DNA of 37,541 nucleotides from a virus: the IMG/VR virus record IMGVR_UViG_3300047552_001151, positions 1 through 37,541 of that record. One strand, written 5' to 3'. Of this stretch, positions 2,406-32,647 are shown one piece after another. The stretch's first letter is position 1. Each line of letters starts with the position of its first letter. The notes beneath the pieces were generated by a model. The model saw only the letters and a program-made list of their open reading frames with translations. It ran no database searches and was not told the DNA's origin. A program made the position numbers and the translations under genes.

Positions 2406-3675
2406 AGCTAAGGTAAGAAAGATAAAACTGCTTCCTTACCAAGAGGTATTCATACATGATCACACTCGCTACTTGGCACTAGTAGGAGGACTTGGTACAG
2501 GAAAAACAAAGAGCGCCGTATACAAGGCGCTTTATCTGTTGCAAACAAATAAAGGTTGCAGTGGTATAGGTTGTGAGCCAACGGGTCCACAGTTGTCAAT
2601 TTTCACAACTGAGATGGATAAGACATGCCAAGAGCTAAACATCAAATACAAATATAACGGTGGTGGCAGAAATAGTCCTGCCTTCTATCAATTTGATTTT
2701 GGGGCTGGTCCACAGCGCCTTTGGTTAGTATCTGCTGAGAACTATAAGCGAACACTAGTTGGTTACAACGTAGCATTTGGTTTTGTTGACGAGTTTGACA
2801 CGATACCAAATAAAGAAGAAGCATTACAGATGTGGAATGCTCTTAATGACCGCTGTCGCGACCCTAAAGCAAAGCTAAGGCAAACATATTGCACAACTAC
2901 GCCAGAAGGTTTCCATGCAGTGCATCACTTGTTTGTGGAAAACGCGACAGAGCAGCACAAGCTAATTCAAGTTAGCACGTATGAAAACAAATTCCTGCCT
3001 CCATCATATATTGATGATCAATTAAAGCGTTATACACCACTGCAAGCAAAGGCAAAGATATATGGTCAATTTGTGAACGCCTTTTCTGGTGCTGTCTACT
3101 ATTGCTTTGACAGAGAAAAGAATTTCACAAATAAGACTATCGCTGATTTTCCCACAAATGCCATCCTACATATTGGCATGGACTTCAACGTAGAGAACAT
3201 GAGCGCAGTAATCAGCATTGTGCAAGACGGTAAGGTGTATGTGGTTGATGAAATCACTGGCGAGAAGAATACGCAAACAATGATTCAAGCATTAAAGCGT
3301 AAATTCCCTAATCGCGTTATGTACATCTACCCAGACAGCAGCGGTAAGAGTAGCAGTGCTAATGCATCTGTTAGCTCTATGACAATGCTTAAGGATGCAG
3401 GTTTCCAATGCTTCTACAAAGGCAATAACCCAAGCATCGTCAAAGAACGAGTACCAGCAGTTAATGCGCTCTTTAAGAATGCAGCAGAGGAAATGCGCTG
3501 CTTCGTAAACTTAAACAAGTGCACAGTATTAGTTAAGGGTTTGGAACAACAAGGCTACCTAAATGGAAAACCAGACAAGACAAGTGGACTTGATCACTGT
3601 CTTGACGCCTTTGGCTACTTCTGCGCATTCCGCTTTCCTGTAGTTGGTCACGGCAGTATCACCGTGCATAAATGA
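2398..3675 (+). CDS. terL: Terminase large subunit
   Basis: A 425-residue packaging motor: an N-terminal ATPase drives DNA into the prohead and a C-terminal RNase H-like nuclease cuts it. Visible motifs are Walker A GGLGTGKT at 30-37, Walker B ending in D131-E132 (FGFVDEFD), and metal-binding acids of the nuclease at D262 (HIGMDF), D313 (YPDSSG) and D399/D403 (GLDHCLDAF). Length is typical of the family. The start overlaps the small subunit gene and the portal gene follows after 33 bases. The packaging type (cos or headful) cannot be read from the protein alone. Confidence 0.95.
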   Translation: MSKAKVRKIKLLPYQEVFIHDHTRYLALVGGLGTGKTKSAVYKALYLLQTNKGCSGIGCEPTGPQLSIFTTEMDKTCQELNIKYKYNGGGRNSPAFYQFDFGAGPQRLWLVSAENYKRTLVGYNVAFGFVDEFDTIPNKEEALQMWNALNDRCRDPKAKLRQTYCTTTPEGFHAVHHLFVENATEQHKLIQVSTYENKFLPPSYIDDQLKRYTPLQAKAKIYGQFVNAFSGAVYYCFDREKNFTNKTIADFPTNAILHIGMDFNVENMSAVISIVQDGKVYVVDEITGEKNTQTMIQALKRKFPNRVMYIYPDSSGKSSSANASVSSMTMLKDAGFQCFYKGNNPSIVKERVPAVNALFKNAAEEMRCFVNLNKCTVLVKGLEQQGYLNGKPDKTSGLDHCLDAFGYFCAFRFPVVGHGSITVHK

Positions 3676-3708: not shown

Positions 3709-5244
3709 ATGTTTGGTCAACAAAATGAAGCACCAATAGCACTAGGCTTTACGGCAAAGCAATGGGTGGACTTTCTGAATACAGATAAAGCCGTAGATGC
3801 TATGAAGGCTCTAAATTATTTAGATGGCCAACAAGAGCAGGAACTGATTAAGGTATTAAACGATCCGTCACGTGGCAGAAGCAAGTGGCGTGAACGTGGA
3901 CTAACACCTCGCTTCCGCAACTTAACAAAAATGGTTGTAGAGAAATCAGGTCTATTGTTTAAAGATGCGCCTCCAATCCTTGAAGTCTATAACGCAGACG
4001 AAGTAACAAGCAATCCTGGCGCAACTGCATTACTTAACGAACTTTTTTCTAAGATTGAATTTACAGAGTTCGCAATGAACTTTGACACTGTATTGCGTCT
4101 ATTAAAGACTGCAATCGTATTGGTTCAGTGGGATGCAGAAGAAAAGCATTGGTGCTTGGATGTGTTACATCGCGGTAATTGCGAAGTAGTAATTGATCCG
4201 CGCACACGTAAGCCAGTTGGCATGATCCATCGCACTAGCGATAACTCCTATTGTGTATGGACTAATGATGAAGTGATTGAATTAACGCAAGGTACTGCGT
4301 CACTAGGTATTGGTTCGCGTGAAGCAAATCCATACGGAATTATCCCTATTGCTGTGTTCTATGACCAAAGTACACCGCGTACAGGCTTTTGGGTTGAACA
4401 AGATAAGAGCTTGGTTAACTTGAATGAAATGGTTAACTTGCATATTACTGATTCTGAGTACTCTATCTTGTGGAGCAAGATGAGCACCTTGTTTACAAAT
4501 ATGCGTCCTGCTGGCAATGGACAAGACAATATTGAGGTCGCGGAAGTGGTTAATAGCCCATTGCCACGTATTGTGCCTGCTGGTGCATTGTCTGCTGGTT
4601 ATCTTGCAGGTCCAGGTCAAGCAGTGGTATTAGATAGCATGGGTGTAGATAACCCATTCGTTCGTTATGAGAATCCTAATATTGATCTTAAGCCGCTAAA
4701 CGAAGTAGTTGATAGCTGGATTAAAGGTTATGCAGGTGATTGGTCTGTACGCATTGAAGTGGCAGGGCAGGGACGTGCGCAGAGTGGCTTCCAGCTGGTT
4801 GTAGAAGAAGCAGACAACTTAGATTTGCGTAAGCAGCGCCAGCGCATGTTTGAAAGCGGCTTTAAGCGCCTTTATCGCGCCCTAGCAACTGTGTTCAACA
4901 CTGCTATGGGTACTACTGCATTCCCGCTAGATTCGCAGCTATTCGCGCAGTTTGATGATCCTGTATTGCCTGTAGACATACAAGTACAAGAAACAGTATG
5001 GGCACAACGTATCTTAGAAGGCCGTGCAACAGAGATTGATTACTTTAAGACTGTATATGGAATGACTGACGAAGAAGCAGAAGCTAAGTTCGTAGATATT
5101 GTCGAATTCCAAAAGCGCAAAGCCATTCTATTAGGACAAGACGTTGCAGTAGTTGAAGCAACAGATGAACAAATGTCGCTAGATGAAGAAACTGGCGTAG
5201 ATACAGTAGAAATAGATGGTTCGCCTGATAACGACGAAGCATAA
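3709..5244 (+). CDS. Portal protein
   Basis: A 511-residue protein with the size, position and character of a siphovirus portal, which forms the dodecameric DNA channel at one capsid vertex. Residues 50-100 (SRGRSKWRERGLTPRFRN region) and the long helical stem after about residue 350 (KQRQRMFESGFKRLYRAL) fit the portal fold. The style is that of the DUF4055/SPP1-like portals. It lies directly between the terminase and scaffold genes. The C-terminus is very acidic. No MuF-like head morphogenesis gene follows, which is slightly unusual. Confidence 0.85.
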   Translation: MFGQQNEAPIALGFTAKQWVDFLNTDKAVDAMKALNYLDGQQEQELIKVLNDPSRGRSKWRERGLTPRFRNLTKMVVEKSGLLFKDAPPILEVYNADEVTSNPGATALLNELFSKIEFTEFAMNFDTVLRLLKTAIVLVQWDAEEKHWCLDVLHRGNCEVVIDPRTRKPVGMIHRTSDNSYCVWTNDEVIELTQGTASLGIGSREANPYGIIPIAVFYDQSTPRTGFWVEQDKSLVNLNEMVNLHITDSEYSILWSKMSTLFTNMRPAGNGQDNIEVAEVVNSPLPRIVPAGALSAGYLAGPGQAVVLDSMGVDNPFVRYENPNIDLKPLNEVVDSWIKGYAGDWSVRIEVAGQGRAQSGFQLVVEEADNLDLRKQRQRMFESGFKRLYRALATVFNTAMGTTAFPLDSQLFAQFDDPVLPVDIQVQETVWAQRILEGRATEIDYFKTVYGMTDEEAEAKFVDIVEFQKRKAILLGQDVAVVEATDEQMSLDEETGVDTVEIDGSPDNDEA

Positions 5245-15719: not shown

Positions 15720-18700
15720 ATGACAGATAAAGAAAATATTATTGGTGCAGGTGGTGGAAAAGGCGGTGGTGGTGATACACGTCAAGCAGTTATCGCTAAT
15801 GACACATTAAGCTCTAACTCCGTAGTTAAAGTTCTATTCGCTATTGGTGAGGGCGAAATGGGTGGGTTGGTAACTAATGACGCACGTAGCATTAGGTTTA
15901 ACAATACACCATTAATGAACAATGGTGGCAGTTACAACTATAACAACGTCACATGGGCAACTAATCCTGGTACTCCAGCACAAAGCTATATTCCTGGCTT
16001 CTCTACAACAGAGACATATTTCCCTGTTGCTAGTGGTACGCAATTAACTAATGCAACACCATACACAATGACAACATCAGGTCCGAATATTGATGCTGTT
16101 CGTGTTGATGTAACTATTCCTGCTTTGTCCAATACGAACACAAGCAATGGCGACGTTACAGGTACTGCTGTTGAATTCTCTTTATATAAAAAGACAATCG
16201 CTGCTGCCACATGGGTATTGGACCAGCACGTAACTATTAACGACAAATCTTCCTCTCCTGTGACATTGAGCTATTTGGTTCAAAATCCATCTGGTCAAAG
16301 AAATCCGTCTGATGCTATTGTTGAAACTTCCTCTGGTAATCCAGATAGTCACTTTAGCGACGTAACTTTATTAATGCACTTTGAGGGTACAGACTTAAAT
16401 TCTGATGGTATCCATCCGTCAGGTTCGACCTATGCTGGTAATCAATACTATGTAGATAGTTCAAACTATCATCGCTCTTGCACATCATATTCTGGTGGCA
16501 ATAAGATGTCTACAGCGCAAGCTAAGTTTGGTAGTTCGTCTGGTTTGATGACCGCTAATACTGCACACGCACCTGGCTCTGTATTAGTGAACAATGCAGA
16601 TGGTGGATTTGAATTTGATGGTGACTTTACCGTTGAAGCGTGGACATACTTAACAGCGAAATATGGCTACCCAACTATTCTGAAAGTAAGTACCCCAACT
16701 GGTTATTGGTCTTTACGTGTAAATGGCTCTGAATACGAGTTTGATGCTAATGGTGGAAATATCATTACCACTGGTGCAAAAGTAAACGCTAATCTAAATA
16801 AGTGGACTCACGTTGCTGTATCTCGTATTGGTGCAATGATGCGAATTTACATCGACGGTGTTATTTGCGGCATAGTATCTCATACAGGTACTATTGGTGG
16901 TACAGGCGGAACATGCAAAGTTTCTAGCGATACATGGGGTGAAGGATGGCAGGGTTACTTAGATGAAATTCGCGTCACTAAAGGCACAGGTCGCTACTAT
17001 GATGGCTTTGGTCCTGCTGGTGCGGCATTTCCTGACAATGACACATCTACATGGGCTACATGGAATAATTGGGTAACTAGCTCTACTGCTTATGGTGGTA
17101 CTGGTGGTTCTACATGGCAAGTTCAAGTTCGTAGAGATACACCAGATAACGGCTCTACATACTTGCTCAACAGCACTTATATTTCTGGTTATACGGAAGT
17201 ACAAGACGTAGCTATGTCATACCCTAATACTTGTGTACTAGGTATTCAGGCAAGTGCTAAGGATATTGGTAACTCCATTCCTACAGTATCTGGTGACTGG
17301 TATGGTCGCTTAGTTAAGATTCCATCTAACTACAACCCAACAACTAGAGCCTATACAGGTACTTGGAATGGAAGCTTTGCAACAATTAAGCAGTGGACTA
17401 ACAATCCAGCATGGATTTTGTATGACATGCTTACAGAGGCTCGCGCTGGGTTAGGTGTAGACGAAACATCTATTGATAAATGGAGTTTCTATGATGCAGC
17501 TCAATACAACGATGAACTAGTTTCTGATGGTAACTTGGGCACAGAGCCACGCTATACGTTTAACGGCTTTATTGCACAGCGACTAGGTAGCTGGGATGCA
17601 TTGAATCAAATCGCTGCAACTATGCACGGTAGATTAATCACTACAGGTCAAATCATTAAGTTGGTGCAGGATCGTCCTGCTAGTCCTGTTGCCTTAATCA
17701 CTAACTCTAATGTCATTAGTGATGGCGATACAGATTTCACGTATGCAACACCAAGCAAGACAACTCGCTTTACTGCATGTAAGGTTACTCTTAATGATCC
17801 TGATTACTCGTATCAAGTAAAGGACGTAATCTATAACGACACGTCAACAGGTGAACCTTATTTGCAAAATGATGTAAATGGTTTTGGTATTACAAGCGAA
17901 GGTCAGGCACGTAGATTAGCAAAGTGGTATGTATACACATCGCTATATGACAGCCTAACATGCACGTTTAAGGTTGGACCTGAGTTTGCGACATTAGAGC
18001 CATTCGACGTTATTAAGGTAATGGATACAAACGTTGCTGGTGCTATGTTAGAGGCACGAGTGGTTAGCACGTCTGGTTCGACTGTTACGTTAGATCGTGA
18101 CGTAACTATTGGCTCTGGTTCTTGGTCTATTGATGCTGTTGGTGCTGATGGCGTTAGCATTGAAACTAGAACTATTACTTCTACAAATACAACTACTAAG
18201 ACATTAACTCTTAGTGCTGCAATTACCAGCTTGATCAACAGTGCTGTAATCATTACAGGCTCTATTGTCCCACAGACATATCGTATTCTTTCCATTAAGG
18301 AAAACAAGGCTAATGAATTTGAAGTTAGTTGCATCCAGTACAGCGCATCTAAATTCAATACTATTGAAAACGGAACAGGAACAGCAGTAGCTACTTCAAA
18401 CTTCTTTGCAACACCTGATTTGCGTTCTGTTAATCCAGTAAGTAACTTCGTATTCCATCAAGTGTCTGTATTGCAATCTGATGGATCAGTTCAACGCTTC
18501 TTAGACTGCGATTGGAGTCCAACAGCTAGTGACTATGTTGTTAGTTATATTGTGTCGTGGAGCAAAGACAGTGGACCAATGCACGATGAAGGTTCTACAT
18601 ATCAACCACGTATACGTATTCCAATTACCGTTGACGGTACATATAAAGTAAACGTTATCGCTATTAACGCATGGGGTAAGCGTTCTATCGTTGCTTCTGG

Positions 18701-21700
18701 TACGTTCAATGCATTAATCTCTGCGCCAGTTACCGTATCTACTTTACCTGCGGTTACTGATTTGATGACAGCGGAAGGTAGCACTACTGCTTGGTATGGT
18801 TCAGACTTAAAGGTTAAATGGGTAGCTGGTGCTAATACTACAAACTCTGTATTGAAGGACTATATTGTTCAATATGCAGATACAAGTAACTCTGTTGTCT
18901 TTAAGACTACATACACAGTAGACACCAATCACGTATTGTCTATGTCTGACAATGCTGCAAGTAACGGCGGTGTACCTAAGCGTAATGTTATCGTTACAAT
19001 TAAGGAGCGAGATAACAATAACATGTTGTCCAGCCCAACAAGCATTACAGTCAACAATGCTGCTCCTGCTGTGCCAACTAATATTGCAACAACAGGTATG
19101 GCGTATGTCAACGTTATATCTTGGACACCACCAGAGGCATCGAGCAGCGTACTAGGTTACATGGTATGGGGTTCTAAGACTAATGGCTTTACTCCAAGTA
19201 GTGCTAACTTATTGTCCTTAGGGTCACTCAACCAATTTACTCATAGTGCATTAACTTCTGGTGATACTTGGTATTACAAGGTTGCTGCTTATGACTCTTG
19301 GGGTCACGCAAATGATGGTACTGGATTGAATATATCTTCTCAATACTCTCGTACTGTTGAGGCGGTAATTGGTATTCCGCAAGGAAGTGCAGTGCCAGGT
19401 ACAGGCACAGAAGGAGATTTGTTCTTCAATACGACTGATGGTAAGTTATATCGCTACCATAGCGGTGCATGGACTGCTGCTGTAGCGGCTAATGACCTGA
19501 CTGGCACATTAACAGATAGTCAATTGGCAGGAATTGCGGCAGCAAAGATTACAGGTAATATCGTTTCAAGTCAAATTGCAGATGCAGCGGTTACTTCTGC
19601 TAAGTTTGCATCAAATATTGAGCCCGTTACTACTGTTACTTCTGTACCATCCACTAAGTCGACAAGTACAGTATTCAATACAACTGATGGCAAGTTATAT
19701 CGCTGGAATGGAACATCATATGTAGCCACTGTCCCAACTACTGACTTATCTGGAACAATTACATCTGCTCAGATAGCGGATGCGGCGCTTACCACTGCTA
19801 AGTTTGCAAGTGGCATAGAGCCTGTTACCACAGTAACATCAGTACCAGTCACTAAGTCAACTAACTCTATATTCAATACCACTGATGGCAAGTTGTATCG
19901 TTGGAACGGAACATCTTATATTGCTACTGTTTCAGCAAGTGATTTATCTGGAGCTATTTCTACTACACAAATTACAGATAGTTCGATTACTACTGCTAAG
20001 ATTGCTGCTAATGCGGTTACCGCATCGCAGATAGCGGCAGACACAATCACAGCAGCGCAGATTGCTGCTGGTGCTATCTCTACAACTGAGTTGGCCGCAA
20101 ATGCTGTTACGGCTGCAAAGATTGCGGCTGGTACTATCACAGCGACTGAAATTGCGGCATCTACCATTACAGGTTCAAAGATTGCAGCAAATACTATCAC
20201 TGCATCTAACATTGCCGCTGACACAATTACAGCAGGTCAAATTGCAGCTGGTGCTATTAGCGCAACTGAATTGGCTACTGGTGCAATTACAACAGACAAA
20301 CTATTTGTCACTGGTAAAGGCAAGGCAATTAACGATGATCCTTCCTGTAAAGATGCAACTGCATGGACAGTAGGAGCAGGTGCATTCGTATCACAAGCAG
20401 ACACAACAGCACCAGTTGGCTCTTACAGCTTACGAGCAACTAACGGAACAATAATTAGCTCACGTACATTCCCTGTTGAAGCAGGTAAGACATATAAGGT
20501 GTCTATGTGGGCTAAACAAGTATCTGGTGCAGGTACTATGTACATACGTCTGTATTCCTACAATGCAGCAAATACCTTAACGTCGTATTTGGTTACTGGT
20601 TTGTCTCCTGTAACGTCAAACTTAGAAGGATTAACTGTCCCCGCTACTTGGACAAAGTATGTTGGTTACATTACTCCTGCTGCTGGTTGCGTATATGGTC
20701 AAATCTACTTACACCTAAACTGGAATACGACAGGTGTTACAGACTTAGCAGATATTAGAGCAGAAGAATACATCGGTGCTGACCTAATTGTAGATGGTGC
20801 AATTACAGCCGCTAAGATCGCTGCTAATACGATTACTGCATCTCAAATCGCCGCAGATGCAATTACAGCGAGTGAATTGGCTGCTGGTGCTGTTACAACA
20901 ACTGAATTGGCTGCTGGCGCTGTTACCACTGCGAAAATAGCGGCTGGTGCCGTTACTGCAAATGAGATAGCAGCGGGAACAATTACTGCGGCAAAGATTG
21001 CGAGTGGAACAATTACTGCTACTCAAATCGCAGCCAATACAATTACAGCTTCACAATTGAGTGTAAGTCAATTGAGTGCCATTAGTGCAGACTTAGGCAG
21101 TATTACGGGTGGATCTATGGCAATTGGGGCTTCACCTGTAATCAGTGGCACTACTATGACAGGAAGCGGCTTTAAGCTTAATACTGATGGAACATTTGCC
21201 TTAGGTGACTCAACTAGAAATATCGTTAGCAATGGTTCGCAAATTGCAGTTAATGGATTTGCTACCACTTACCAACAGCAAGGAAACTATTCATTAGGCG
21301 CCAGCGGCGGTTTAACTTCTGCAACAAAAACAGTTATTAATTCCTTTACTACAGCAAAAGGTAAAGTATTGTTTAATCTTACTTGCCATAATTCAGTTAG
21401 CTTTTCTGGCACAGTGGCAAGATTATATTTGGTAACTTTAACAGTCTGGGTTAGATATGGCACAACCCCTGTAGTTGCTGTGCCTGCAACTTGGTCAGGT
21501 ACTCTTACGCCTGCTCAGTCATCATATCAGTATTTTTATATTCCGTTGCCTGTGTCTATTTTCAGAGACTCTCTGGCTAATTATGTTGGCCTTCCACTTA
21601 GGGTTGAAGTTGATATATCTGGGCAAGTTCTAAATCTTGCAACAGGACAACGAGTTAGCGAACTAGTTAGTTCAGACTTTTACTATAACGCATCTTTATT

Positions 21701-21716
21701 GGATATTGTTTTATGA
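15720..21716 (+). CDS. Central tail-tip / host-specificity protein (lambda gpJ-like)
   Basis: A 1998-residue protein, longer than lambda gpJ (1132). The N-terminus (GAGGGKGGGG, then NDTLSSNSVVKVLFAIGEGE) is typical. Residues about 216-430 hold a LamG/concanavalin-type jellyroll inserted in the N-terminal part (LLMHFEGTDLNSDG, FTVEAWTYL, KWTHVAVSR, LDEIRVTKG). Residues about 560-680 are the tip-attachment J core (ILYDMLTEARAGLGV, WDALNQIAATMHGRL). FN3-like domains occupy about 900-1220. Three TDGKLYR modules, two arrays of IAA-xx-TITA repeats and a carbohydrate-binding-like beta domain between the arrays (about 1535-1690) follow. It forms the hub and receptor-contacting tip. Confidence 0.9.
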   Translation: MTDKENIIGAGGGKGGGGDTRQAVIANDTLSSNSVVKVLFAIGEGEMGGLVTNDARSIRFNNTPLMNNGGSYNYNNVTWATNPGTPAQSYIPGFSTTETYFPVASGTQLTNATPYTMTTSGPNIDAVRVDVTIPALSNTNTSNGDVTGTAVEFSLYKKTIAAATWVLDQHVTINDKSSSPVTLSYLVQNPSGQRNPSDAIVETSSGNPDSHFSDVTLLMHFEGTDLNSDGIHPSGSTYAGNQYYVDSSNYHRSCTSYSGGNKMSTAQAKFGSSSGLMTANTAHAPGSVLVNNADGGFEFDGDFTVEAWTYLTAKYGYPTILKVSTPTGYWSLRVNGSEYEFDANGGNIITTGAKVNANLNKWTHVAVSRIGAMMRIYIDGVICGIVSHTGTIGGTGGTCKVSSDTWGEGWQGYLDEIRVTKGTGRYYDGFGPAGAAFPDNDTSTWATWNNWVTSSTAYGGTGGSTWQVQVRRDTPDNGSTYLLNSTYISGYTEVQDVAMSYPNTCVLGIQASAKDIGNSIPTVSGDWYGRLVKIPSNYNPTTRAYTGTWNGSFATIKQWTNNPAWILYDMLTEARAGLGVDETSIDKWSFYDAAQYNDELVSDGNLGTEPRYTFNGFIAQRLGSWDALNQIAATMHGRLITTGQIIKLVQDRPASPVALITNSNVISDGDTDFTYATPSKTTRFTACKVTLNDPDYSYQVKDVIYNDTSTGEPYLQNDVNGFGITSEGQARRLAKWYVYTSLYDSLTCTFKVGPEFATLEPFDVIKVMDTNVAGAMLEARVVSTSGSTVTLDRDVTIGSGSWSIDAVGADGVSIETRTITSTNTTTKTLTLSAAITSLINSAVIITGSIVPQTYRILSIKENKANEFEVSCIQYSASKFNTIENGTGTAVATSNFFATPDLRSVNPVSNFVFHQVSVLQSDGSVQRFLDCDWSPTASDYVVSYIVSWSKDSGPMHDEGSTYQPRIRIPITVDGTYKVNVIAINAWGKRSIVASGTFNALISAPVTVSTLPAVTDLMTAEGSTTAWYGSDLKVKWVAGANTTNSVLKDYIVQYADTSNSVVFKTTYTVDTNHVLSMSDNAASNGGVPKRNVIVTIKERDNNNMLSSPTSITVNNAAPAVPTNIATTGMAYVNVISWTPPEASSSVLGYMVWGSKTNGFTPSSANLLSLGSLNQFTHSALTSGDTWYYKVAAYDSWGHANDGTGLNISSQYSRTVEAVIGIPQGSAVPGTGTEGDLFFNTTDGKLYRYHSGAWTAAVAANDLTGTLTDSQLAGIAAAKITGNIVSSQIADAAVTSAKFASNIEPVTTVTSVPSTKSTSTVFNTTDGKLYRWNGTSYVATVPTTDLSGTITSAQIADAALTTAKFASGIEPVTTVTSVPVTKSTNSIFNTTDGKLYRWNGTSYIATVSASDLSGAISTTQITDSSITTAKIAANAVTASQIAADTITAAQIAAGAISTTELAANAVTAAKIAAGTITATEIAASTITGSKIAANTITASNIAADTITAGQIAAGAISATELATGAITTDKLFVTGKGKAINDDPSCKDATAWTVGAGAFVSQADTTAPVGSYSLRATNGTIISSRTFPVEAGKTYKVSMWAKQVSGAGTMYIRLYSYNAANTLTSYLVTGLSPVTSNLEGLTVPATWTKYVGYITPAAGCVYGQIYLHLNWNTTGVTDLADIRAEEYIGADLIVDGAITAAKIAANTITASQIAADAITASELAAGAVTTTELAAGAVTTAKIAAGAVTANEIAAGTITAAKIASGTITATQIAANTITASQLSVSQLSAISADLGSITGGSMAIGASPVISGTTMTGSGFKLNTDGTFALGDSTRNIVSNGSQIAVNGFATTYQQQGNYSLGASGGLTSATKTVINSFTTAKGKVLFNLTCHNSVSFSGTVARLYLVTLTVWVRYGTTPVVAVPATWSGTLTPAQSSYQYFYIPLPVSIFRDSLANYVGLPLRVEVDISGQVLNLATGQRVSELVSSDFYYNASLLDIVL
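19430..19950 (+). repeat. Three TDGKLYR modules in J-like gene
   Basis: Copies begin near 19433, 19683 and 19881, each encoding TTDGKLYR(Y/W) followed by an alanine/threonine linker. The last two are 198 bases apart and closely similar in DNA. Confidence 0.8.
19985..20300 (+). repeat. First IAA/TITA helical repeat array in J-like gene
   Basis: About ten imperfect copies of a 10-11 residue unit of the type TITAxxIAAxA. DNA copies have diverged in third positions, so this is old or selected, not a recent expansion. Confidence 0.8.
20796..21065 (+). repeat. Second IAA/TITA repeat array in J-like gene
   Basis: About nine further copies of the TITAxxIAAxA unit after the beta domain. The two arrays frame a separate domain-sized segment at about 20300-20795. 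Confidence 0.8.
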
Positions 21717-22267
21717 CATTTTACGCTTACTATGATACAGACGGACGAATAACAGGAGTTAACAATGCTACTGATGCTCTAGGGGAGAGCCGAGTTGTTT
21801 GTGATCCAGATATAGACATTAATCTCTCCTACGTATATGGAGGGTCGGTGGTTTCTATGCCAGCTAAACCAAGTGTATATCACTACTTTGACTATACAAC
21901 TAAGGCATGGACAACGGCTAAAAATAATACAGAGCTACGACTACTAGAGCTAGAAGCTATTCGAGATACTAAGAACTCACTAGATATTACATGGGGCGGA
22001 CATTCATATCCGTGCACGGATGAGTGGCGAGGCAAGTTTGCCGCTGCCGCTGTGTCTTATAACTACTTAGGCGTATCCCCTCCTAAGTTGCCAAAAGATG
22101 GTGTAGATACATACATTGCAGGTGCAAACTTAGCATCTATATGTGGAGCGCAAGAGACTTACTTTGAAGCAGTTAAGACAAATTATGATTCTCTTGTCGT
22201 AGCGATTAATAATGCAGCAGACGATACGGCGTTAGCAGCGATTGATTTAACCGCTGGTTGGCCTTAA
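21713..22267 (+). CDS. Tail fibre-associated protein (DUF4376-like)
   Basis: A 184-residue protein overlapping the J-like stop by 4 bases. The central section RLLELEAIRDTKNSLDITWGGHSYPCTDEWRGKF followed by an alanine-rich helical C-terminus matches DUF4376 proteins, commonly encoded after host-specificity or fibre genes. They are thought to be fibre assembly or tip accessory factors. The TAA stop at 22265-22267 overlaps the stop of the convergent fibre gene. Confidence 0.72.
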   Translation: MTFYAYYDTDGRITGVNNATDALGESRVVCDPDIDINLSYVYGGSVVSMPAKPSVYHYFDYTTKAWTTAKNNTELRLLELEAIRDTKNSLDITWGGHSYPCTDEWRGKFAAAAVSYNYLGVSPPKLPKDGVDTYIAGANLASICGAQETYFEAVKTNYDSLVVAINNAADDTALAAIDLTAGWP

Positions 22268-25176
22268 TTAATTCTAATAGTTGTATGCTCTATGCCTTGA
22301 AGTTGTATAGTAGTTTCAACTCTGCTATCAACTTTCTTTCTAGTAAACGACTTGGCAATAGTTAGGAATAGTGCACTTAGCTTTGGTAGTATGTCGTTTA
22401 AGACGCTAGTTAGCGATGCAAACGATGTGACTACAGCGGTAAGTGCAATTTGCAATTGGCGACCTAAGCTACTAAATGCTGTTGATGTTACATTGGCAGC
22501 TTTTTCACCAAATACAAATTTAGCGATGCCACTAACGGTATTGCCAATTGCATTTAATGTGTAATATCCAATCTTTGTCATAGTTGAGGAATTGGCTACT
22601 TCTACACTTTTGTTTAGTAATGCTGCCTTGCTTGTATTGCTAACGGTTGGCGCAATTAGCGACTTAGATAGCGATGTAATCTTGTTAATAGTAACGTTAA
22701 CAGGTGATGCAACGTAATCCAAAACCTTTTGCGTAGATTTAACTAATGAGCTATTGCTTAATGATTCTGCACTGGCAGTTATATATCGCAATATCGCTAA
22801 TGTAATTGTGCTACTGAATGCAGTGGATGTGGATAGAGCAGAACTAATCTTATTAACTGCATTTGCCACACTTGCATTTGTCGCTAATGCAACAACAGCC
22901 ATAGCCTTTTGCGTAGATTTAACTAAGGAGCTATTGCTTAATGATTCTGCACTAGCTGTTATATATCGCAGTACCGCTGTTGTGACGACGCCAATTAATG
23001 CAGTTGGAATTGATAGTGAAGAAACAATCTTATTGACTAGGCTTACTTTCGATGCAGTCGTAGTGGGGTTAGCAGACTTACTGTACCCTATATATGACTG
23101 CTTTGAAGGTAATGATGTAACTGTGGCTAATTTGGATAAATTTCTTAAAGCTGGTAAAAGAGATGTAGCTAAAGTGGTAGCACTAGCTGACATTGTTTGA
23201 TAGTAAGTTCCTCCAAGTATAGGGGTAAGAGCAATGGGATTTTGATACCCATACATATTTTGGGCTTCGGCTGTAATTGCGTTGGTTGTGCGCTGAGTCC
23301 ATGTAATACCGTCAGGCGAAGTCGCTGCAACAGTTGTGCTGGATGAGTATGGAGATGCGCAGAATAAGTTGAGTGCATCATTATATGAAACCATAACCCA
23401 AGTGTTTAACCCACCTGGCAAAGTTGCCGTATTCCACGTAACACCATTGTCAGTTGAATAATGACAAGTTGATGATTGGTATATAATAACCATCGTACCA
23501 CCTGTGCCATTGACTACCTTAGACGCAATATTCCAAGGTGATCCTAATGTTGTTGGTCGTGTTCTTGCAGTCCAATTTATACCGTCTGGTGATGTAGAGG
23601 TAAAGTTTCCACTAATTGCACAGAATACCGAACCATTCCAAGTAATATATCCACCACAAGCATTTGGTAATGTGCCGCCAGTCCAATTTATACCGTCAGA
23701 GGAATAAGCAAATTTTGATCCTGCAACAGTAACAAAAACACCAGGTGTGGTAGGTCCACCAAAAGCAACACCACCAGCAGTACCAGAGCCGCCAGAGGCA
23801 TTAGGTAGTGATCCAGTTGTCCAAGTGCTTCCGTCAGTTGACCTTGCATAAGAAGAACCAGCAGTGAAAACCACTGCGCTATTACTATTAGCGCCAGCAC
23901 TTGATGCGTTGTTCAATCCAAAGCCAGTCATCGCTTGCCATGTTGCGCCGCCATCTATAGATCGTGCCCAGTTTCCTATTCCAGCAACTTGTGGTACGGC
24001 TATGATGTAACCGCCTAGTTTTCCTCTTGCTGCTACCCAGTTAGTCCCACTAACGGGCATAGTGGTGGAGTTCCAGTTAATACCGTCTGTAGAGTACTTT
24101 GCACCCGCAGCGCCTCCACCATATTGGTCAGGGAATATGATGAATGGCTTAGGAGAATCTAATACACTAAATGTAGCACTTGCTGTTGAGGTGGGCGCAG
24201 CACTTGCTGTTAATGGATATGTAGAGCCAACGGTGTGACTTTTTGTACCTGTGGTTGTAGATGTAGCAGCCGCAGTTAAGGTATATGTTACCCCTGCGAT
24301 TGGATCTGACATCATGCCATAGTTCTGGTTGAAATCAGAAATACCTGTTCGTGCAGTCCATGTTATACCGTCAGGTGATGTTGCTGTATTTGCAGAGTTA
24401 TACGAAAAGGTAGCAAATAATTGTAAATTTGGGTCCCATGTAACGTCGCGCCACAGCATACTTGCAGGCAATGTGGCATTGGTCCATGTAGAACCATTGT
24501 TTGTTGAATACTTGCATGTATTGGAAGATAGTCCATACATCACAACTATTGTTCCAGTTGATGGATTAGATGCTACACCCCAAGTATATTGACCTGATGT
24601 TGTATCACCAGTCCATGTAATACCATCGCTTGATTTCGCCACACCAGCGGTAGTTGTTGCGACAAATACTGAGCCATTCCATGTAATGTGACTGCCATAT
24701 GGAGAAGTGGCTGCTGGCATTGCGCCACCAGCAGTCCAAGTAGCACCATTATTGTCAGAATAGGAAGTTGTTGTATTGGTTGACGAAATAGAGACTAAGC
24801 GAGTCCCATTACTACCAATTGTGCCACCAGATGCATTTGGTAATGTTACCGTAGTCCAAGATGTGCCGTTAGATGAATAAGCTACAGATGAGCCTGAACT
24901 ATAGTAAAGCGCACCGTTATGGTTTACACCAATATTGCTTACTGCTATTGGCAGAGTGTAGCTAGAGAATGTAATACCATCTGTAGATGATCCACCAACT
25001 GTGTTACCGCGACGACCAGCGAAATACTTACCAGCAATCTTGCCTATGCCTTGCCAATTGTAAGCACCATTTGTGACCTCAGGTATTGTTCCGTAACTCC
25101 AGGTTATACCGTCCGCAGAATACCTGGTCTTATTTGTCGATACCCCGTACTGGCCAGGAAAGACAATGAACGCCAT
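22264..25176 (-). CDS. Giant receptor-binding/fibre protein with two predicted beta-propellers
   Basis: A 970-residue protein. Two homologous N-terminal halves start FIVFPGQYG (residue 3) and FIIFPDQYG (near 344). Each half carries seven Asp-box-like S-x-(D/N)-G-x-(T/N/S)-W motifs, the number expected for one seven-bladed propeller each. Residues about 690-970 are alanine/serine-rich helical repeats containing duplicated AESLSNSSLVKSTQK, and a short basic end. Asp-box propellers occur in sialidases and glycan-binding proteins, but no catalytic set is recognised. The gene starts through TAATG overlap with the 101-residue gene and lies opposite to the rest of the tail genes. Probably a receptor-binding fibre; enzymatic activity is unproven. 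Confidence 0.75.
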   Translation of the reverse strand: MAFIVFPGQYGVSTNKTRYSADGITWSYGTIPEVTNGAYNWQGIGKIAGKYFAGRRGNTVGGSSTDGITFSSYTLPIAVSNIGVNHNGALYYSSGSSVAYSSNGTSWTTVTLPNASGGTIGSNGTRLVSISSTNTTTSYSDNNGATWTAGGAMPAATSPYGSHITWNGSVFVATTTAGVAKSSDGITWTGDTTSGQYTWGVASNPSTGTIVVMYGLSSNTCKYSTNNGSTWTNATLPASMLWRDVTWDPNLQLFATFSYNSANTATSPDGITWTARTGISDFNQNYGMMSDPIAGVTYTLTAAATSTTTGTKSHTVGSTYPLTASAAPTSTASATFSVLDSPKPFIIFPDQYGGGAAGAKYSTDGINWNSTTMPVSGTNWVAARGKLGGYIIAVPQVAGIGNWARSIDGGATWQAMTGFGLNNASSAGANSNSAVVFTAGSSYARSTDGSTWTTGSLPNASGGSGTAGGVAFGGPTTPGVFVTVAGSKFAYSSDGINWTGGTLPNACGGYITWNGSVFCAISGNFTSTSPDGINWTARTRPTTLGSPWNIASKVVNGTGGTMVIIYQSSTCHYSTDNGVTWNTATLPGGLNTWVMVSYNDALNLFCASPYSSSTTVAATSPDGITWTQRTTNAITAEAQNMYGYQNPIALTPILGGTYYQTMSASATTLATSLLPALRNLSKLATVTSLPSKQSYIGYSKSANPTTTASKVSLVNKIVSSLSIPTALIGVVTTAVLRYITASAESLSNSSLVKSTQKAMAVVALATNASVANAVNKISSALSTSTAFSSTITLAILRYITASAESLSNSSLVKSTQKVLDYVASPVNVTINKITSLSKSLIAPTVSNTSKAALLNKSVEVANSSTMTKIGYYTLNAIGNTVSGIAKFVFGEKAANVTSTAFSSLGRQLQIALTAVVTSFASLTSVLNDILPKLSALFLTIAKSFTRKKVDSRVETTIQLQGIEHTTIRIN
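22725..22970 (-). repeat. 180-base-spaced direct repeat within fibre gene
   Basis: Positions 22725-22790 and 22905-22970 are nearly identical over about 66 bases and encode the duplicated ITASAESLSNSSLVKSTQK segment. The close DNA match marks a recent duplication, unlike the older propeller duplication. Confidence 0.85.
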
Positions 25177-28520: not shown

Positions 28521-28777
28521 AAACAAAAAGCCCAATAACGATTGATGCTGAAAATGCCGTTAGACAAGTAATAGCCAACATTGGCTTTGTAGAAAAATGT
28601 TTAATTCTAAATATTGATCCTATTGAGAAATTACAAGGTTTCTTAGATACATATCCATATCGTGAAGCTGATGTTAACTGGACTAAACAAGATATCAAAG
28701 ATAGAGAAGATTGGATGCAAGGCGTAGAGAATGTAATAGAGGAACTTAGGGAGGCAAAGAAGTGGAATACAAAATAA
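28517..28777 (+). CDS. Unknown early protein, 86 residues
   Basis: Overlaps the previous gene by 4 bases and the primase gene by 16. Helical and charged, with a C-terminal EDWMQGVENVIEELREAKKW helix. No family recognised. The tight overlap argues for a role close to replication. Confidence 0.7.
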   Translation: MKTKSPITIDAENAVRQVIANIGFVEKCLILNIDPIEKLQGFLDTYPYREADVNWTKQDIKDREDWMQGVENVIEELREAKKWNTK

Positions 28778-29688
28778 CTTACTTCGCTAACTTTCACGAT
28801 ACTTGTGTAGAAGTACACGACAGTATTGAGTGGGAGGAAATGGTATCGCTGTTTAGCGAACACACTCTTACAGAGAATAAAGACGGAATGATGTTTAATC
28901 TCTGCTCTTTTAAAGACAGGGATGGCATTAGGTGTGCAGACAATGTAGACAGCTACTATGGGCTAGTGCTTGACTATGATGGACATGGTGCAACACTAGA
29001 AGGCATTGTAGATAGATTCTTATCGTTTACACACTTAGGTTACACAAGCTTTAATCACGTTATTAAAGGCGTAGACAAGATGCGTGTCGTATTGCCGTTC
29101 ACTACACCTTGCCCAAAGGATGAATGGGAATCGCGCAAAGCAGGATTCTTAGAGTTTGCGGGTATTGAGATTGATAAGTCCTGCATATCGCATTCGCGTT
29201 CCTTTTACATGCCAGCATGTCCAGCAGCTGGTGTAGAGCATAAGTTAGCGTGGAACGTTAAAGGTGAGTGGCTTGATTGGACAGTTTTTGAGCCAGAGGT
29301 TAAGCCTGCCTACGTGCCTCCTGCTCTTACCTTTACAACTACACCAACTGACATGCAACGAGCGCTAGACGAGCTGTTTAGGCACGTTCCTGTAATGGAT
29401 AACGAGGGTAGGTATTGGCTTGTACGTGCAGTAGCAAGAGAGATAGGGGAAACCGCTGCGATAGCGGAATGCCAAAAGCGGTGGCCTGATGCAAATTGGA
29501 ACGGTAAGTATATAGATCAGGTTAAGCGTTTAACAGAGAATGGTCCTGGAATGGGGGCCATCATTAACAAGATTAAGAAATTTAATCCAACATACAAAGC
29601 TATTACAAAAGACGATTACAGGCTCGCTGTACTCAAAGCTAACATAAAAGTAATAGAAGAAAAATTAAAGGAATTGGAAAATGAGTAA
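28762..29688 (+). CDS. Archaeo-eukaryotic-type primase
   Basis: A 308-residue protein starting with GTG at 28762, with GGGAGG nine bases upstream. LVLDYDGHG supplies the acidic pair D71/D73 of the AEP fold, and SHSRSFYMPA (143-152) with H144 and R146 is the characteristic second motif of plasmid and phage primases of the RepB'/VapE-associated type. Residues 200-270 are a helical C-terminal domain (WLVRAVAREIGETAAIAECQKRWPDANWNGKY). It would make primers at the phage origin. It overlaps the ATPase gene by 8 bases; in many phages the two domains are fused. Confidence 0.8.
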   Translation: MEYKITYFANFHDTCVEVHDSIEWEEMVSLFSEHTLTENKDGMMFNLCSFKDRDGIRCADNVDSYYGLVLDYDGHGATLEGIVDRFLSFTHLGYTSFNHVIKGVDKMRVVLPFTTPCPKDEWESRKAGFLEFAGIEIDKSCISHSRSFYMPACPAAGVEHKLAWNVKGEWLDWTVFEPEVKPAYVPPALTFTTTPTDMQRALDELFRHVPVMDNEGRYWLVRAVAREIGETAAIAECQKRWPDANWNGKYIDQVKRLTENGPGMGAIINKIKKFNPTYKAITKDDYRLAVLKANIKVIEEKLKELENE

Positions 29689-31042
29689 TATTACAAAGAG
29701 GGAAGACATAGATGATATGTCTAAGGATGAATTAAAGAAGCTCTTGATGCTGATGCAGGCTGCAACTAAGAAGCAATCTCTCATTGAGTTTGTTGATAAG
29801 AATGCTAAGGGTGTAGTTAAGAAGACTTTAGAGAATACGCAACAGCTTCTAGACCACTATGGTATTACTATTCGCTACAACGAGATGACTAAGAACCATG
29901 AGTACTATATTCCTAATAAAGAGTTTCATGGCGACACCAAGGCTAATGCGGAGATGGCATATTTGAAGTCGTTAGCTAGGGATCAAGAATTACCTGTTGA
30001 TGATTTATTTGAACACGCCACATACATTGCTAACCAGAACGCCTATCACCCTGTTAGGGATTGGGTGGACAATATTGAATGGGACGGAAAAGATAGGTTG
30101 CAAGATTACTACGCTACTATCCAAACTACGGATATTGAGTTAAATCTTAAAGAGACATTTATGCGTAAATGGGCGCTTAGTGTTATGGCTGCTCTGTACC
30201 ACCCTAACTTTAGCTGTGAAGGTGTCCTTGTACTTTACGGTTTACAAGCTACAGGTAAGACGTCGCAAGTTTATTCATATTTCCCTAAAGAGCTTGCATT
30301 GGACTGCGTTAAGACAGGCGTTACGTTGACGGTTAGTGATAAGGACAGTGTGTTAAAGGCAACTAGCTCTTTAATTACTGAATTAGGCGAATTAGGCGCT
30401 ACCTTTAAACGCAGCGATATTGAGCAGTTGAAGGGATTTATTACGGAAAAGACAGACGTTGTTCGTCCCCCATACGAGCGCAAAGCAAATAGCTACAGCC
30501 GCCGCACTGTGTTCTACGCTACGGTGGACAAGTTAGGATTTTTGCAAGACGAAGAAAACAGACGCTTTTGGGTTCTAAACGTATCTGCTGTCAAAGCACC
30601 AAAATATGATTTAGGACAGTTTTGGGCACAGATGAAGGCGATGTATTTCGCTGTAGCACCTAAGATTACTACGCTAGAAGACCGCATTAAGCATAACGAA
30701 TGGGGATGGTTCTTAAGTCCTGCTGAACGACAAGCGTTAAAGAACAGTCAAAGCGAGTTTAAGAGCATTGACCCTATACGCGAGTTGCTGGACGATAAAC
30801 TTTACAGTGCACAAGATACGGTGATTAAGGGTGGCGAGTGGAAGAATAGCACCGCAATATTGCTTGGATGTGGCAAATCTAATGTCCATAAGTCTGAGAC
30901 TAATGTGGTTGCTGCGTTTTGCAGGGAAAACGGTTACCAATATAAGCCAAAAGGTAAGATGTTCTATGTTCGCTTTAAGGAAGCAATTATCTCTGGCATA
31001 AATGGTCCAGTTCCTAAGTTCAAAAGTAGGACGGAGGACTAA
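29681..31042 (+). CDS. VapE-like replicative ATPase/helicase
   Basis: A 453-residue protein of the virulence-associated E family. It contains the lead-in VRDWVDNIEWDGKDRLQDYY, Walker A GLQATGKT at 187-194, an LITELGELGATFKRSDIEQLKGFIT segment (acidic Walker B region plus sensor helix), and RRTVFYATVDKLGFLQDEENRRFWVLNV with the family's RRF-W. Together with the primase it is a split primase-helicase for phage replication. A candidate origin follows directly. The C-terminal 80 residues (SNVHKSETNVVAAFCRENGYQYK) look like a winged-helix DNA-binding end. Confidence 0.88.
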   Translation: MSNITKREDIDDMSKDELKKLLMLMQAATKKQSLIEFVDKNAKGVVKKTLENTQQLLDHYGITIRYNEMTKNHEYYIPNKEFHGDTKANAEMAYLKSLARDQELPVDDLFEHATYIANQNAYHPVRDWVDNIEWDGKDRLQDYYATIQTTDIELNLKETFMRKWALSVMAALYHPNFSCEGVLVLYGLQATGKTSQVYSYFPKELALDCVKTGVTLTVSDKDSVLKATSSLITELGELGATFKRSDIEQLKGFITEKTDVVRPPYERKANSYSRRTVFYATVDKLGFLQDEENRRFWVLNVSAVKAPKYDLGQFWAQMKAMYFAVAPKITTLEDRIKHNEWGWFLSPAERQALKNSQSEFKSIDPIRELLDDKLYSAQDTVIKGGEWKNSTAILLGCGKSNVHKSETNVVAAFCRENGYQYKPKGKMFYVRFKEAIISGINGPVPKFKSRTED

Positions 31043-31275
31043 GTTGGGTTACTAAGGGTTACTAACGGGTCACCATCTTTTTTGGACATGGTGACCCTGT
31101 AAGTTGTTGATTTCATTGAAGAAAATGCTTAGGGTTACTAAGTTACTATATATTTTATATATATCTTTAATACGTATATAGGTACTATAGCGAAAAGAGA
31201 GATAGTTAGTTACTTGGTGACCCTAGCAGAAAAATGTTCAATGAAATCAATGGGTTAGCGATACCTAGGGTTACT
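31043..31275. other. Iteron-rich candidate replication origin
   Basis: GGGTTACTAA occurs at 31046, 31056 (tandem) and 31132, and GGGTTACTA again at 31268. GGGTCACCAT at 31067-31076 forms a perfect inverted pair with ATGGTGACCC at 31088-31097, and GGTGACCCT recurs at 31216. TTGATTTCATTGAA at 31107-31120 is perfectly inverted at 31237-31250. Between these lies a strongly AT-rich stretch, 31146-31183. Iterons plus an AT-rich unwinding region beside replication genes is the classic origin layout. Confidence 0.65.
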
Positions 31276-31536
31276 ATGTGTTCTAAATACAAGATGAAAG
31301 ACATAAGAAAGTTAAGTTTGGCAAAGGCGTTGCAGCACGCCAAAGCGAATCCACCCCAAAAGAGCACGTTACTTAGGGATGAGATTGATAGGATCATTTT
31401 GGCTGCATTAGAGAAGCATAGTAATGGAATCCACGTAACTGCTAGGTACTTAGGAATTACGCCAAAAACGATGTGGCGTTGGAAGCAAAGATATGAGAAG
31501 CGCAGATTAGAGGGGTTAAAGGGTAATGAGCCATAG
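31276..31536 (+). CDS. Fis-type helix-turn-helix DNA-binding protein
   Basis: An 86-residue protein from ATG 31276. The region DRIILAALEKHSNGIHVTARYLGITPKTMWRWKQRYEKRR (residues about 38-77) is a Fis/NtrC C-terminal-type HTH. An in-frame ATG at 31234 exists, but it lies inside the inverted repeat, lacks a ribosome site, and would code across the last iteron. The AGGG before 31276 is itself part of an iteron. It may bind the iterons to control replication and its own synthesis, or be a transcription regulator of the early genes. Confidence 0.7.
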   Translation: MCSKYKMKDIRKLSLAKALQHAKANPPQKSTLLRDEIDRIILAALEKHSNGIHVTARYLGITPKTMWRWKQRYEKRRLEGLKGNEP

Positions 31537-32587
31537 AGCTGACTAGCGCCCCTACCGTTTTTTTGTCAAGTGAAAATCCTATTATTTTTCACTTTTTTTC
31601 AACTATTTTCGAATATTTTTCACTACTCTGTCCTATAAACCCACTGCACCTTTCACTAAGAAGTAACTCAGTTACTGGTGTGCCTTATTATTAGGCTGTC
31701 AAGCCAATCAGGTAATACCAGACTAATAAGACCTGACTTTAATCGACTTATAGAATCAATCATTTAAAAATTGCAGCGGGTAGTCATGACTTAACCATCA
31801 GCTCACTGTGGATAAAGGCAGTGGTATAGGTACAGTAACCATCAGCTCACTGCCTTTTCATACAGTGAGCTTATCTAATTGATTACCTGTCAAGCGATCT
31901 AAAATAAAAATAAAAAATAAATTTATTTCTGTGCGAATGGTATTGACAGCGATCATCAGGTAGTGATGGTCTTACCAATGTGCCTTAATAGTAGGCACAC
32001 TGTTATGCACAGTAATCCCTATGTGATAATCACTGTGCTATAGGATGTATAGCGATGTATCAGCCATAGGTAGTAAGGCTTAAGGACGCTCACTAATCCT
32101 TTATACAGTGCATTAGTGTTAAATGCATTATTGTCACATCCGTGTCACACCTTGTGCGGTCAAGCGTGGGGTGGTGATGGAGATAGCGATGGGAGATAAG
32201 ATGTAATCAACCTGTCAACAGTAGAGCATAGTAGACTAGGGTGGCTGGTTAATCGCTAAGGCTTGACAGGGGCCGCGTTGAAGGTGACAGAGTAGGGCGC
32301 GGCAGTCATCGTTGTCGCGAACGTTTTAAACTTGGGACTATTACTGGTAACTGTATCTTCTACAGTGCATGTAGGGGTATGCCTACTATTACTACACCTT
32401 TGCCCCCGCAATTTTTGTTCGACAGTTTCAAAATCCTAATTAAATTATCTTGCCTTCTATAGCCCTGTTTAAAGCAATATTCCACTGTCCAGCTACCAGT
32501 GCATACCCTACGAAAAAATCGCTGTTTTGACGCACGAAACAAGCCGTTTTGAGGCTGTTTTCATGCGGTTTAAGCGTGTTTCAGGCA
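31537..32587. other. Non-coding, repeat-rich 1.05 kb region
   Basis: No credible gene. It contains TTATTTTTCACTTT at 31582; the hyphenated palindrome GTAACT-C-AGTTAC at 31663-31675; a 17-base direct repeat (TAACCATCAGCTCACTG) at 31792 and 31836; AGCTCACTG/CAGTGAGCT stem at 31844/31863; TGTGCCT/AGGCACA stem near 31979-31999; GCACAGT/ACTGTGC at 32007/32032; CCTGTCAA/TTGACAGG at 32211/32263; and ACTGTA/TACAGT at 32350/32361. CTGTCAAGC recurs at 31696 and 31887. TGTCACA occurs twice, one helix turn apart, near 32132-32149. Candidate regulatory RNAs, second origin element, or partition-like site. Confidence 0.6.
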
Positions 32588-32611
32588 AGAAAAAGCGCCA
32601 ATAAAGGCGCT
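32588..32611 (-). terminator. Rho-independent terminator (minus) after adhesin-E-like gene
   Basis: AGCGCC/GGCGCT stem at 32594/32606 around AATAAA, followed on the minus strand by TTTTCTT. The 18-base stem-loop is identical to the one at 33142-33159. Confidence 0.85.
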
Positions 32612-32647
32612 ATGTAGTAAGTGACTAGTGCGAATTTTCGCTATATC

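Follow-up and report, generated by a model that had tools for sequence, protein, structure and literature searches.

A putative iteron-type replication origin directly downstream of a VapE-domain helicase gene in a 37.5-kb phage record

Genomic setting and anatomy of the repeat cluster

What is the function of the short repeats crowded into positions 31043-31276 of the virus record IMGVR_UViG_3300047552_001151, between the gene of a VapE-domain helicase and that of a small HTH protein? The record, all 37,541 bp of which were analyzed and are referred to below as the window, carries genes for the large terminase, major head, minor tail and tape measure proteins, with an integrase gene near its right end. 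A first-pass annotation had proposed a replication origin here, with the HTH protein as iteron binder and regulator of its own synthesis. The genes and elements in question are as follows.

28762..29688, + strand: primase-like gene, 308 aa (phrog_9765 DNA primase, E 1.4e-7, a weak match)
29681..31042, + strand: VapE-domain helicase gene, 453 aa (PF05272, E 6.8e-40; phrog_1313 DNA helicase, E 2.1e-51)
31046..31054, + strand: iteron 1, GGGTTACTA
31056..31064, + strand: iteron 2, GGGTTACTA, in tandem with iteron 1 at 10 bp spacing
31067..31075, + strand: iteron 3, GGGTCACCA, left arm of a 10-bp perfect hairpin with iteron 4
31089..31097, - strand: iteron 4, GGGTCACCA, right arm of the hairpin with iteron 3
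31107..31120, + strand: left arm of the 14-bp perfect inverted repeat
31132..31140, + strand: iteron 5, GGGTTACTA, at the left edge of the AT core, paired with iteron 6 in the DNA fold
31141..31190, no strand: AT-rich core, presumed unwinding element, overlapping the most AT-rich 50 bp of the record
31215..31223, - strand: iteron 6, GGGTCACCA, right of the AT core
31237..31250, - strand: right arm of the 14-bp perfect inverted repeat
31268..31276, + strand: iteron 7, GGGTTACTA, overlapping the possible HTH start ATG 31276
31276..31536, + strand: small HTH protein gene, 86 aa from ATG 31276 or 100 aa from ATG 31234 (PF13384 HTH_23, E 1e-6)

The helicase matches PF05272 with 137.3 bits against the curated cut-off of 25, which places it among the VapE-domain (superfamily 3) proteins, and it is probably the replication initiator. 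The adjoining primase-like gene has no Pfam match; its counterparts at the same place in two relatives (L004 and L002) contain PriCT_2 and Prim-Pol domains, and its product is the probable partner of the helicase. The helicase gene stops at 31042 and iteron 1 begins 4 bp further, so that the putative origin lies directly 3' of the initiator gene and a primase gene directly before it, the order of SaPI/PICI-type rep-ori segments; for the primase, the phrog_9765 support is weak.

The cluster consists of a single 9-mer, GGGTYACYA, present seven times within 231 bp, as four GGGTTACTA and three GGGTCACCA copies. The four former copies, two of them in tandem (+31046, +31056, +31132, +31268), had been correctly described in the first-pass annotation, and an A follows three of the four as a tenth base. 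The three GGTGACCC half-sites listed there are likewise present (+31067, -31089, -31215), two of them in a perfect 10-base inverted pair (31067-31076/31088-31097, the first two GGGTCACCA sites), but they lose their standing as a separate element, being the same 9-mer with two C for T changes. Five iterons lie to the left and two to the right of the AT-rich core. Both other elements of the earlier description were found in place: the 14-base inverted repeat flanking the core (TTGATTTCATTGAA, 31107-31120/31237-31250), which is the only perfect one in the record with arms within 200 bp, and the AT-rich stretch itself, with 31135-31184 (16% GC) tying for the most AT-rich 50 bp of the record.

Seven of the eight GGGTYACYA matches in the whole window belong to the cluster, while dinucleotide shuffles of the whole window averaged 0.80 matches and never reached eight, the degenerate pattern having been picked after the sites were seen. 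A motif-independent score, which counts the 8-mers that recur within the 260 bp following the helicase gene, came to 25 versus 1.2 for shuffled sequence (p = 0.005, the lowest value that 200 shuffles allow) and was matched by just 0.4% of 282 other windows. Two further repeat-dense stretches of the window (20720-21000 and 22680-22990) are both situated within long ORFs (15720-21716 and 22264-25176, respectively).

Folded as single-stranded DNA, the cluster region gave a z of -6.0, with iterons 5 and 6 pairing around the core inside the 14-bp repeat. The hairpin at 31067-31097 is strong (RNA fold z -4.8) and could in principle act as a transcription terminator or RNA regulatory element, the remainder being spacer. 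We regard this as very improbable: the stem is not followed by a T run, the promoter and terminator scan of 30800-31700 revealed neither kind of site, no Rfam match was obtained, and the hairpin arms coincide with iterons 3 and 4. We assign no role to the spacer hairpin, since its conservation fell short of significance among close relatives (z -1.4 to +0.2) and reached it in a single contig, L185.

Downstream of the HTH gene, about 1.1 kb (31540-32640) contains no convincing ORF, tRNA or Rfam match; it includes imperfect palindromes TGTGCCTTATTATTAGGC (31680) and TGTGCCTTAATAGTAGGCACA (31979), a 17-bp direct repeat TAACCATCAGCTCACTG at 31792 and 31836, and an A/T-rich stretch at 31896-31932. 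Cumulative GC skew, proposed earlier as a check of the origin, does peak near 32.5-33.5 kb, yet is uninformative, since in this linear record the curve follows gene direction.

Recurrence of the layout downstream of related helicase genes

A helicase search of viral contigs yielded close relatives with 45-52% identity, and in nearly all of them the helicase gene is directly followed by an AT core with short repeats of their own around it. These repeats are of the TTTACATC type in L003/L004, TTACAGC type in L096/L097, ATAGTCGC type in L089 and L092-L095, TAGTAGCA type in L098 and AGATGA type in L002; L005 and L091 contain the AT core, with a repeat score that is not significant. The AT cores of the relatives are alike, several ending in TATAG(C) or close to it, although their automatic alignment is loose. 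As to conservation in close relatives, by which the first-pass annotation would have judged its own reading, the letters of the repeats thus differ and the layout stays the same.

Viruses, bacterial genomes and plasmids together supplied 34 non-redundant VapE loci for a wider survey. In 19 of these, the 260 bp that follow the VapE gene fell within the locus's top 5% for repeated 8-mers (binomial p 2e-16), or in 18 of 33 without L126, which came from a scan for the motif itself. Over the loci, the 3' stretches averaged 11.9 repeated 8-mers versus 1.8 upstream of the gene, and they exceeded the remaining noncoding gaps there (median 10 versus 2, p 2e-5). The iterons differed from locus to locus, reading TGTAGACA (L130, L042), CGTAGACA (L043), AGTGTTACT (L044, Staphylococcus), TGTCCACYA (L045), GTGTAAAC (L040), AGTGAACC (L111) and GGGTCACC (L126). 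The last locus, a separate VapE phage contig, contains seven GGGTCACYA-type sites starting 14 bp after the VapE gene, of which only the position of the cluster is independent evidence, as the contig was found by its motif. The 9.9-kb plasmid pPSEST02 (L107) has a VapE gene with a GTGGTGGGAT repeat cluster directly 3' of it (4080-4400). The remaining 15 loci, including GenBank phages ep3, FoX5, Alexa and VP16T, showed no top-5% enrichment 3' of the VapE gene, nor was such enrichment detected there in the E. coli 9.1-kb plasmid pSCU-121-2 (L108). In Shewanella phage SFCi1 and Pseudoalteromonas phage PY6 repeats are found upstream of the VapE gene instead; these are GTGCAC-rich or GTGCCCC/GGGGTGCA repeats beside an AT-rich stretch (L106 480-830, L105 790-1180).

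The dyad GT(N1-2)AC was 2.2 times more frequent than expected 3' of VapE genes and marked in 11 of the 34 loci, ranking first of 16 dyads tested, its enrichment having been spotted after the sequences of these same loci were viewed. The TA..TA dyad was likewise enriched, which may merely reflect AT-richness.

Taken with its anatomy, this recurrence in many independent elements makes the origin reading of the cluster a well-supported one as far as sequence comparison goes. The first-pass proposal of an origin is borne out also by its match to PICI and SaPI origins shown to work and to an SCCmec origin shown to be bound (PMC6092414, PMC7581432). PICI origins invariably comprise an AT-rich region with an iteron set on either side, situated 3' of the initiator gene; for the E. 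coli PICI EcCICFT073, plasmid maintenance by the rep-ori segment was tested (PMC6092414). The window shares this layout (pri, rep, then the iteron origin) with SaPI/PICI rep-ori segments such as that of EcCICFT073 and with SCCmec origins, but differs in its iteron, GGGTYACYA, and in being a 37.5-kb phage record and not a satellite: the PICI satellites lack a full structural gene set of their own and depend on a helper phage, whereas terminase, head, tail and tape measure genes are all present here. The cluster is very probably a phage-borne case of the origin kind known from staphylococcal and E. coli phage satellites. Our literature search found no paper containing both 'VapE' and 'iteron', the layout itself being known from PICIs and SaPIs.

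The helicase as the candidate iteron binder

If the cluster serves as an origin, which protein reads it? The nearest solved structure to the window's helicase, by both sequence (4e-37) and fold (7.5e-11) in the PDB, is PriRep1 with dsDNA (7pds, "similar to D. nodosus vapE"), at about 16-17% identity over the fold alignment. The C-terminal part of the helicase is predicted to form a winged helix at about residues 365-430 (pLDDT about 80); the ATPase part was modelled with low confidence. Relative to the window's protein, the helicase cores of the close relatives are 53-58% identical and their C-terminal domains 18-26%, the values in the more distant L099 being 43% and 14%. Such a drop is as expected if the C-terminus follows the iteron. 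In SCCmec, the C-terminal domain of Cch2, a self-loading helicase, binds repeats downstream of its own gene (PMC7581432), and a corresponding course of events is proposed here; Cch2 differs in belonging to the D5/Primase_Cterm family and in having just three 5-nt iterons at its putative origin.

Two other binders have to be weighed. An origin whose iterons are bound by some other protein of the phage, for instance the primase, whose gene is also near the cluster, or by a host factor, with VapE acting as helicase only, appears unlikely to us, given that the C-terminal domain of VapE varies in step with the iterons, that in SCCmec it is the helicase C-terminus itself that binds (PMC7581432), and that in L126 and pPSEST02 the cluster occurs with different neighbour genes. 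Alternatively, the repeats might be no origin at all, but operators through which the downstream HTH protein would hold down expression of its own gene and possibly of the region. An HTH is clearly present in that protein, and AGGG precedes ATG 31276 by 5 nt, with iteron 7 overlapping the A of that ATG; the earlier claim that the last iteron covers the ribosome site of the HTH gene thus holds if the gene starts at ATG 31276 and falls if it starts at ATG 31234. Still, the seven sites, spread across 231 bp on both sides of an AT core, are more than an operator needs, the scan of 30800-31700 contains no sigma-70-like promoter, and the layout recurs beside helicases with other, unrelated downstream genes. 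The viral collection yielded no relative of the HTH protein, nor did one turn up beside any such cluster; its proposed part as iteron binder and self-regulator is unsupported. We consider the operator explanation improbable, slightly less so than the terminator one, and the HTH protein is probably a neighbour and not the binder; the predicted winged helix at the VapE C-terminus is the likely and better candidate.

Considering these facts, 31043-31276 is very probably a theta-type phage origin, with the VapE helicase as the initiator that binds the iterons via its C-terminal winged helix. We infer a course of events in which this domain of the VapE-domain (superfamily 3, AAA+) protein would recognize the GGGTYACYA iterons on both sides of the AT core, and hexamers would assemble at them; the core would then melt, the helicase load itself and unwind the DNA, and primers would first be made by the product of the upstream primase gene before the host polymerase takes over. 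A DNA search of GenBank phages with the cluster region gave no match. The locus offers a testable origin and initiator for a phage type with no near DNA-level relative in GenBank. A simple rule is suggested as well, namely that iterons just 3' of a VapE gene would locate the origins in many prophages, satellites and small plasmids.

The same iteron beside a second helicase family

A scan of viral contigs for GGGTTACTNNGGGTTACT returned 32 stretches. In 17 of them, 4-8 GGGTTACT sites cluster on the 3' side of a D5_N / NrS-1-type helicase gene, no more than 4 kb away and mostly right at its 3' end. Many matches of scans with a looser motif were set aside as tandem repeats with no VapE or D5 helicase match within 4 kb. 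In the clusters from phi105-like Bacillus phages (L007, related by BLAST to Bacillus phage phi105 and two similar Bacillus phages, and others), the helicase gene is immediately followed by 4-8 sites grouped around an AT core. These clusters share with the window an identical 20-mer, GGGTTACTAAGGGTTACTAA, whereas the helicase gene codes for a D5_N / NrS-1-type primase-helicase, about 800 aa long, in these phages and for VapE in the window. This sharing despite a different helicase family, and the recurrence of GT(N1-2)AC dyads in VapE iterons, are the less expected of our observations. The common 20-mer may reflect shared descent of the origin, exchange or convergence; the literature search for GGGTTACT returned only unrelated papers among the matches listed.

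A broader generalization can be put forward only tentatively, and we hold it to be rather doubtful: that a common GT-N(1-2)-AC kind of iteron is recognized, via a shared C-terminal winged helix, by initiator helicases of both the VapE and the D5 type, be they from phages, plasmids or satellites, that unrelated helicase families ended on the same 20-mer, and that the origins of many unannotated elements might be predictable from the helicase gene alone.

In L185, eight GGGTCACCA sites, several of them arranged as hairpins like that of the window, are found at 2696-3104, at the 3' end of a DUF5906/PriCT_2 gene.
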